Below, in pieces: positions 62,886-63,890 of a stretch of DNA of 64,000 nt. A program made the translations under genes and the position numbers. The notes beneath the pieces are model-generated. The model did no database searches. It saw only the letters and a list, made by a program, of their open reading frames with translations, and was not told the origin of the DNA. The DNA lies in NCBI RefSeq assembly GCF_008838325.1, contig NZ_CP042829.1, positions 2,418,001 through 2,482,000 of the forward strand. Direction: 5' to 3'. How positions within the stretch are numbered: position 1 is the first letter of the stretch; each line of letters starts with the position of its first letter. The DNA is from Tepidiforma bonchosmolovskayae (lineage in GTDB: Bacteria; Chloroflexota; Dehalococcoidia; Tepidiformales; Tepidiformaceae).

Positions 62886-62914
62886 TTGACAGCCTCCGCC
62901 GTCCGGCGCATGCT
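62886..62914 (+). promoter_or_regulatory. Promoter of the birA-side leader
   Basis: A perfect TTGACA (62886-62891), 17-base spacer and CATGCT (62909-62914). The RNA would start near 62921, just before a full-strength ribosome site. Confidence 0.55.
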
Positions 62915-62940
62915 GCGCGGCAGGAAAGGAGGTGATGCGC

Positions 62941-63000
62941 ATGGACCATCATAGTCGTAGCTACGACCGTACCTTTGCGCTGGAGGTGACCTCCTCCTAG
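62941..63000 (+). CDS. Putative 19-residue leader peptide upstream of birA
   Basis: The ORF encodes [19 protein letters not shown] and follows AAAGGAGGTGA, an almost complete complement of the 16S rRNA 3' end, at ideal spacing (8 bases). An in-frame ATG two codons earlier is less well placed. The coding region contains the palindrome GTCGTAGCTACGAC and GGAGGTGACCTCC, both able to form or exchange RNA stems with downstream sequence. I recognise no homolog. It looks like a regulatory leader peptide; what it senses is unknown. Confidence 0.55.
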
Positions 63001-63051
63001 ACCTCTCGGAGGAATCACCGAACCTCCTAAGACCCCGGTCTTAGCTACGCC

Positions 63052-63079
63052 AGGGCCCCGGCAGTACCGGGGCCCTTTT
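63052..63079 (+). terminator. Intrinsic terminator with U-tract before birA
   Basis: AGGGCCCCGG and CCGGGGCCCT form a 10-bp stem with a CAGTA loop, followed by TTTT. It is one of only two hairpins in the window with a clear T-run on its own strand. Confidence 0.88.
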
Positions 63080-63098
63080 CACGTCCCCCGGTCCCGGC

Positions 63099-63890
63099 AT
63101 GACTGCTTCACTCCCGCCCTTCGATTTCGCCCGCTTTCAGTCCCTGCTGACCACGACGCTCATCGGCCGGCCGCTCGTCTACCGCCCCGTCGTCGGCTCG
63201 ACCATGGACCTTGCCCGCCGCGAGGCCGCCGAAGGCGCCGTACACGGCACCGCCGTCTTCGCCGAAGAGCAGACCGCCGGCCGCGGCCGGCGCGGCCGCA
63301 CCTTCTTCAGCCCCGCCGGCGCGAACATCTACGTCACCTTCATCCTCCGCTGCAGCCTCGAACTCCACCGGACCCTCCCGGTCCGCGTCCCGGTCGCGGT
63401 GGCGGAAGCCCTCGCCGCGGTCGTACCCGAAGCGGCGATCAAATGGCCGAACGACATCTGGGTCGGCGGCCTCAAGGTCTGTGGCATGCTCATCGACGGC
63501 GAGCTCGAAGCGGAGGGCCCCGTTGCGTTCCCCGGGATCGGCATCAACGTAAACTTTGACCCCTCGACAGCCCAGCCCGACCTCCAGCGTATTGCTACGT
63601 CGCTCGCCGCCGTCCTCGGCCGGCCGGTCGACCGTGAGGCGCTGTTCGCCCGCCTCTGCAACGAACTCGAACGGACCCTTGCAGCGCCCGCCGCTGACGT
63701 CCTCGCCCGCTACCGGGAGCGCAACCTCGTTCTCGGCCGGCGCGTTCATGTCAGCCCCGTCGGCGGAGCCCCATTCGAGGCCCTTGCCGTCGACCTCGAC
63801 GACGCTGGCGCACTGGTCGTCGAGCGCGACTCAGGTGTCCGCGAGACCGTCACCGCCGCCGATGTCACCGTGCGGCCGGTCGCGACATGA
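63099..63890 (+). CDS. birA: Biotin-[acetyl-CoA-carboxylase] ligase (monofunctional)
   Basis: The 263-residue ligase activates biotin to biotinyl-AMP and attaches it to carrier proteins. Core motifs are V-G-S-T-M-D, E-E-Q-T-A-G-R-G-R-R-G-R and K-W-P-N-D-I-W-V-G-G-L-K-V-C-G-M-L. It lacks the N-terminal HTH of E. coli BirA, so it is not itself a repressor. A leader with a terminator precedes it. The C-terminal SH3-like domain is present. Confidence 0.93.
   Translation: MTASLPPFDFARFQSLLTTTLIGRPLVYRPVVGSTMDLARREAAEGAVHGTAVFAEEQTAGRGRRGRTFFSPAGANIYVTFILRCSLELHRTLPVRVPVAVAEALAAVVPEAAIKWPNDIWVGGLKVCGMLIDGELEAEGPVAFPGIGINVNFDPSTAQPDLQRIATSLAAVLGRPVDREALFARLCNELERTLAAPAADVLARYRERNLVLGRRVHVSPVGGAPFEALAVDLDDAGALVVERDSGVRETVTAADVTVRPVAT

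Follow-up and report, generated by a model that had tools for sequence, protein, structure and literature searches.

The element upstream of birA in Tepidiforma bonchosmolovskayae is probably a free-standing gene that encodes a small structured mRNA, belonging to a family spread through the Chloroflexota and gated by translation, rather than a switch for birA. This reading is drawn from the comparison of sequences. In the relatives compared, the gene usually occurs once per genome. It combines a promoter-like box, an SD sequence complementary to the 16S tail, a frame-constrained ORF of 14–26 codons, a covarying stem (P1) that joins part of the ORF to the segment just ahead of the terminator, and finally the intrinsic terminator itself. 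The parts of the source element are collected in Table 1, where the window is the whole analysed stretch of 64,000 nucleotides. Families and loci are designated below by f and L numbers, the Tepidiformaceae being f1.

Table 1. Parts of the element upstream of birA in T. bonchosmolovskayae (positions in the window)
Feature	Position	Strand	Description and basis
Promoter	62886–62914	+	TTGACA 62886–62891, 17-nt spacer, weak −10 CATGCT 62909–62914; putative, from sequence
Predicted RNA start	~62921–62922	+	From promoter position
SD1, GAAAGGAGGTGAT	62924–62936	+	Complementary over all 13 nt to the 3' tail of the genome's own 16S
A strand, GCGC	62937–62940	+	Between SD1 and start codon; partner 62977–62980
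19-codon ORF	62941–63000	+	ATG 62941, stop TAG; sequence and frame constraint among relatives
P1 5' strand, CGTAGCT..GACCG	62956–62969	+	Codons 6–10; strand-swap test, 0/20000
C strand, GCGC	62977–62980	+	Codons 13–14; partner of A strand
P2 hairpin, GGAGG-TGA-CCTCC	62982–62994	+	Near ORF end, holds internal SD-like SD2; near-invariant in f1
CCTCCT	63023–63028	+	Predicted to be able to sequester SD1 in Tepidiforma; MFE structures
P1 3' strand, CGGTC..AGCTACG	63036–63049	+	Directly 5' of terminator; strand-swap test
Intrinsic terminator, AGGGCCCCGG-cagta-CCGGGGCCCT + U tract	63052–63079	+	Stem 63052–63076, U4 63076–63079
birA (biotin protein ligase)	63099–63890	+	Pfam BPL_LplA_LipB and BPL_C; probably a neighbour, not intrinsic to the RNA gene

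The original prediction had listed a TTGACA promoter, a near-perfect anti-16S ribosome site, a 19-codon ORF, repeated GGAGG/CCTCC segments, a long-range match and an intrinsic terminator, and each of these was located in the source sequence. The long-range match consists of CGTAGCTA (62956–62963) and the complementary TAGCTACG (63042–63049), and the helix covaries among relatives. The terminator ends 20 nt before the birA ATG. The RNA is predicted to be about 155 nt long at the source locus (105–190 nt in relatives), and its fold is more stable than those of dinucleotide-shuffled sequences (z −3.98).

Generic promoter and terminator scans made no call at the source element. In the Tepidiformaceae comparison, TTGAC with a TANNNT-like −10 is found at the matching position in most relatives. 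The 16S gene of the source genome ends in GGATCACCTCCTTTC. The sequence AAAGGAGGTGATNNNNATG occurs once in the 2.75-Mb source genome, and SD1 with an ATG at such spacing is unique there. The start codon is GUG in families f118 and f102. In the Dehalococcoidia families read by eye, the SD-like GAGG or GGAGG of SD2 lies about 5–8 nt before the last sense codon (window 62982–62986), a position at which a terminating ribosome would cover it. SD2 was also considered as the ribosome-binding site of another ORF and was rejected, no start codon being seen by eye at a consistent position.

A DNA search (E<1e-6) recovered the element in 34 of the 36 other Tepidiformaceae genomes, that is, in 5/5 of the genus and 29/31 of the rest of the family, as a single copy each, a level of conservation well above chance. 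The exact pattern AAGGAGGTGRTGNGNATGGA had matches in 61 of 393 genomes of the class and its reversed control in none; one of the 61, L063, is a spurious match to an ordinary ORF. The covariance model R2, built from eight Anaerolineae sequences, matched 148/249 genomes of the Anaerolineae class, once in each save one genome. Among 301 genomes drawn across the phylum it matched 67, including the source genome at 36.7 bits. Because SD and start codon alone can give 20–32 bits with R2, weak matches were counted only with further architecture, and the homology of the Tepidiforma and Anaerolineae forms rests mainly on the architecture they share. Weak-match loci in f102, f104, f110, f118, f119, f120, f133 and other families show SD, short ORF, hairpin and mostly a terminator in the same order. 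Re-examination by a fixed rule gave 115 distinct members with an SD, an ORF of 14–26 codons, and a hairpin with T tract; the rule was failed by 13 loci, most of them known members with a bulged terminator or different spacing. The RNA gene is apparently conserved across the phylum Chloroflexota. Spread beyond the phylum is not claimed, as the loci from other phyla were picked by the SD pattern itself, score at most 32 bits and are mostly ordinary ORFs. Two loci from Bacillota MAGs (L106 and L116) carry AAGGAGGTGATGCGGATGG and a 25-codon ORF ending in EVMAG, as in f70, with no evident terminator; they may reflect a mislabelled genome, transfer or chance.

The strand-swap comparison used 43 representatives of less than 90% identity; its permutation assumes exchangeable sequences, and with relatedness among them the figures are descriptive. 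The two strands of P1 pair at −25.8 kcal/mol within a sequence versus −17.3 kcal/mol across species, with none of 20000 permutations as low. For the pairing of the ribosome-binding site with the ORF, the values were −22.3 and −20.2 kcal/mol (0/20000 overall), the result within Tepidiformaceae, where the A and C strands are involved, being borderline (994/20000). Among 35 f1 sequences, these strands are GCGC/GCGC in 30, GTGC/GCAC in two and GCGA/TCGC in one, and two do not fit. The pairing registers of P2 are shifted in L027, L029, L034 and L037, as read by eye.

In Anaerolineae, the ribosome-binding site pairs over about 10 bp with a AUCACCUC(C) segment inside the ORF, next to the covarying P1 stem. 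In eight unfitted sequences, the SD helix and P1 together have 96.1% paired cells and eight double-changed pairs, with a covariation of 0.412 versus 0.198 after shuffling and at most 0.118 in slid controls. In 34 model-aligned sequences, the corresponding values are 97.0% and nine, with 0.295 versus 0.128 (0/500 shuffles) and at most 0.063; this alignment leans to P1, on which the model was built, and the unfitted set gave the same result. By helix, the larger set is 94.8% paired in the SD helix and 99.3% in P1, which holds eight of the double-changed pairs. Most of the covariation is therefore located in P1. The SD helix contributes a co-change from AU to GC in two sequences, limited to one pair, and it rests largely on complementarity, since 6/10 of its pairs in the eight-sequence set and 5/10 in the 34-sequence set never vary. 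The covariation sought across related genomes was thus found, strongly for P1 and at one pair of the SD helix. It points to an H-type pseudoknot in the Anaerolineae form, which would let a copy of the 16S tail mask the ribosome-binding site. The Tepidiformaceae keep P1 and have weaker and different pairings of the ribosome-binding site, namely the GCGC pairs around the start codon and, additionally in Tepidiforma, the CCTCCT after the stop as partner of SD1 in the MFE folds.

The source RNA, one sequence, was folded unconstrained and with a ribosome on the SD and start codon, in mid-ORF or at the stop. With a 30S subunit on the SD and start codon, P1 is predicted to be freed to form; a ribosome in mid-ORF or on the stop codon is predicted to restore the form with the SD sequestered. 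The two states are predicted alternatives, and all four folds retain the terminator hairpin. These results fit translation gating better than control of readthrough. In the closed state, the ribosome-binding site would be hidden and the ORF silent; in the open state, a 30S subunit would occupy the SD and translation would melt the pseudoknot. Ribosome loading or a ligand may act as the gate.

The ORF evolves as a translated frame would. In Tepidiformaceae it is 54, 57 or 60 nt long, and the spacing from stop to terminator spans all three phases. Over 145 similar pairs, differences at codon positions 1/2/3 number 272/290/502. Of the codons that changed, 34% are synonymous when read in frame, compared with 17% and 25% when the frame is shifted; these counts pool phylogenetically overlapping pairs and are descriptive, with no probability attached. 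The conservation proposed as a check on the ORF was accordingly observed. Just past the start codon (window 62944–62970), tandem UAG-type stops in the +2 frame number 207 in 109 of the 115 members versus 27 in the +1 frame, owing to AGU-rich serine codons. A programmed frameshift at the ORF end was considered briefly; no conservation is apparent beyond the stop.

The surroundings of the gene vary with the group. The gene birA comes next in nearly all Tepidiformaceae loci read and again in f23, f24, f26, f50, f59, f70 and f135 where the stretch was read. In Tepidiforma it heads a cluster of hisE, hisG, a further ORF, hisD, hisC and hisB (window 63099–64000 and L048; names by sequence recognition); in f26, f59 and f70 it stands between murE-like and slipin-like genes. 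In f17, the gene beyond the terminator is convergent (GltD-like in L054, a methyltransferase in L055), and birA is on a different contig in 4/4 genomes searched. Anaerolineae neighbours include convergent sensor kinases and response regulators, a convergent aminotransferase, a downstream AIR-synthase-like gene and a P450, with birA on another contig in the three genomes searched. Since the element has no link with birA in f17 or in Anaerolineae and its neighbours there are convergent or variable, it is most likely a stand-alone small-RNA or mini-mRNA gene, one of the two options that the original prediction had offered.

Ribosome-mediated attenuators of the trp/his leader type have a short leader ORF, alternative helices and an intrinsic terminator, all of which the present RNA shares. 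The original prediction's other option was such an attenuator of birA, where the position of the ribosome on the ORF picks the structure, thereby governing how often the terminator is read through. The Dehalococcoidia unit does usually lie 20–100 nt before birA despite differing flanks (rpsB/his versus murE/slipin), no separate −10-like box precedes birA in the source genome or most Tepidiformaceae, and the P1 and SD-sequestered states are predicted to exclude each other. This reading is nevertheless quite unlikely, as the terminator hairpin persists in every computed fold, the RNA has just as much structure at loci whose next gene is convergent or unrelated, and several downstream birA genes have their own −10-like box (10/47 loci by a fixed rule). 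An antiterminator was rejected on the three ribosome-constrained folds of the source RNA: no terminator and antiterminator excluding each other were found there, and no conserved complement of the terminator arms was noticed by eye elsewhere in the RNA. In almost every member examined, the ORF is followed by a G+C hairpin with a T tract. Unlike the trp/his leaders, the RNA also has no conserved control codon and often no target directly downstream on the same strand, birA having this place in most Dehalococcoidia and convergent or variable genes in f17 and Anaerolineae. The hint at a histidine signal, for which the two His codons of the Tepidiforma ORF and the his genes after birA could speak, fell with L028, L036 and L041, which have no His codon at all; no other shared codon run was identified, and in f26, f59 and f70 murE and slipin, not his genes, lie beside birA. 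A His-sensing leader of the birA-his cluster is contradicted by these data and extremely improbable, and His attenuation was rejected. Since birA follows shortly after the terminator without a −10-like box, its expression by readthrough from the leader promoter may hold in Tepidiforma and most close relatives. In L020, L037, L052, L065, L070 and L074, TANNNT boxes lie a few bases before birA (L020, L052 and L074 by eye) and suggest leaderless-type birA promoters in some relatives.

Two further explanations concern the product of the gene. It is rather unlikely that the peptide of 14–26 residues is the conserved product, with the structure doing no more than setting its translation. The ORF is open in all 115 distinct members, with the in-frame synonymous excess and steps of three described above, and an MDxS-type start and a VASP-like middle recur; the peptide is, however, very divergent between families, and much of its pattern appears to be dictated by the RNA elements (the SD complement, the AGU run and P1). 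An anti-SD small RNA acting in trans, whose AUCACCUC loop would pair with the SDs of other mRNAs and be capped by its own SD1 until a 30S subunit binds, is doubtful. The Anaerolineae loop is part of a stem-loop and agrees in sequence with the end of the 16S tail, and the alpha-r14/NfeR1 RNAs, which carry an anti-SD motif and act in trans on the SDs of other mRNAs, offer a possible analogy (PMC10746234). Against this, no exposed loop of the AUCACCUC type is present in Tepidiformaceae, and a conserved ORF is not needed by such a model. In f104, moreover, the internal segment is CAUCCCUCCUC, which differs from the 16S tail and is complementary to the RNA's own SD, GAGGAGG (duplex −22.0 kcal/mol); it tracks its own SD rather than the 16S tail, as expected of a cis partner. 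Beyond the preferred translation-gated mini-mRNA, a ribosome-status sensor common to the phylum is a speculative and rather unlikely extension: free 30S subunits and the internal mimic of the 16S tail would compete for the SD, and the outcome would set translation, stability or action in trans.

In riboswitches of the preQ1-II and SAM-II types, the SD is taken up in an H-type pseudoknot. The Anaerolineae forms are alike in this pairing of the SD, with double change in one SD-helix pair only, and differ in that the masking strand lies inside the ORF of the mini-mRNA, no ligand is known and no Rfam class matches. At the gathering score, Rfam 15 returned only tRNAs from the 64-kb window and the loci of ten relatives, and thus no match to the downstream-peptide/yfr6 RNAs; the Rfam ar14 covariance model gave 16.4 bits, below its gathering score of 58.8. 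Alpha-r14 (NfeR1, cuckoo-related) of alphaproteobacteria is likewise a stand-alone small RNA whose anti-SD motif is set within a hairpin; it has three hairpins with CCUCCUCCC, whereas the Chloroflexota RNA has one AUCACCUC, placed inside an ORF and complementary to the RNA's own SD (PMC10746234). The downstream-peptide/yfr6 RNAs are also small transcripts joining a structured RNA to a short conserved ORF that changes length in threes, but their structure is 5' of the ORF, whereas in the Chloroflexota RNA the ORF itself is folded into the structure that hides its SD (PMC2864571). No description of the present RNA was found in the literature covered, to which subscription journals mostly did not belong. 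Anti-SD RNAs (PMC10746234) and structured RNAs with short ORFs (PMC2864571) are already known, though no combination of this kind was found; the present RNA would be a new family with a self-masking ribosome-binding site, and most likely a stand-alone mini-mRNA gene.

A caution follows for similar loci: a conserved leader with a terminator should not be called an attenuator before it has been checked whether it exists without its gene. The design is a compact natural case of competition between 30S loading and the folding of an mRNA, in a phylum where RNA biology has seen little work. As a single-copy structured RNA gene that is widespread in a large phylum and absent from Rfam, it is likely to be important to those cells.
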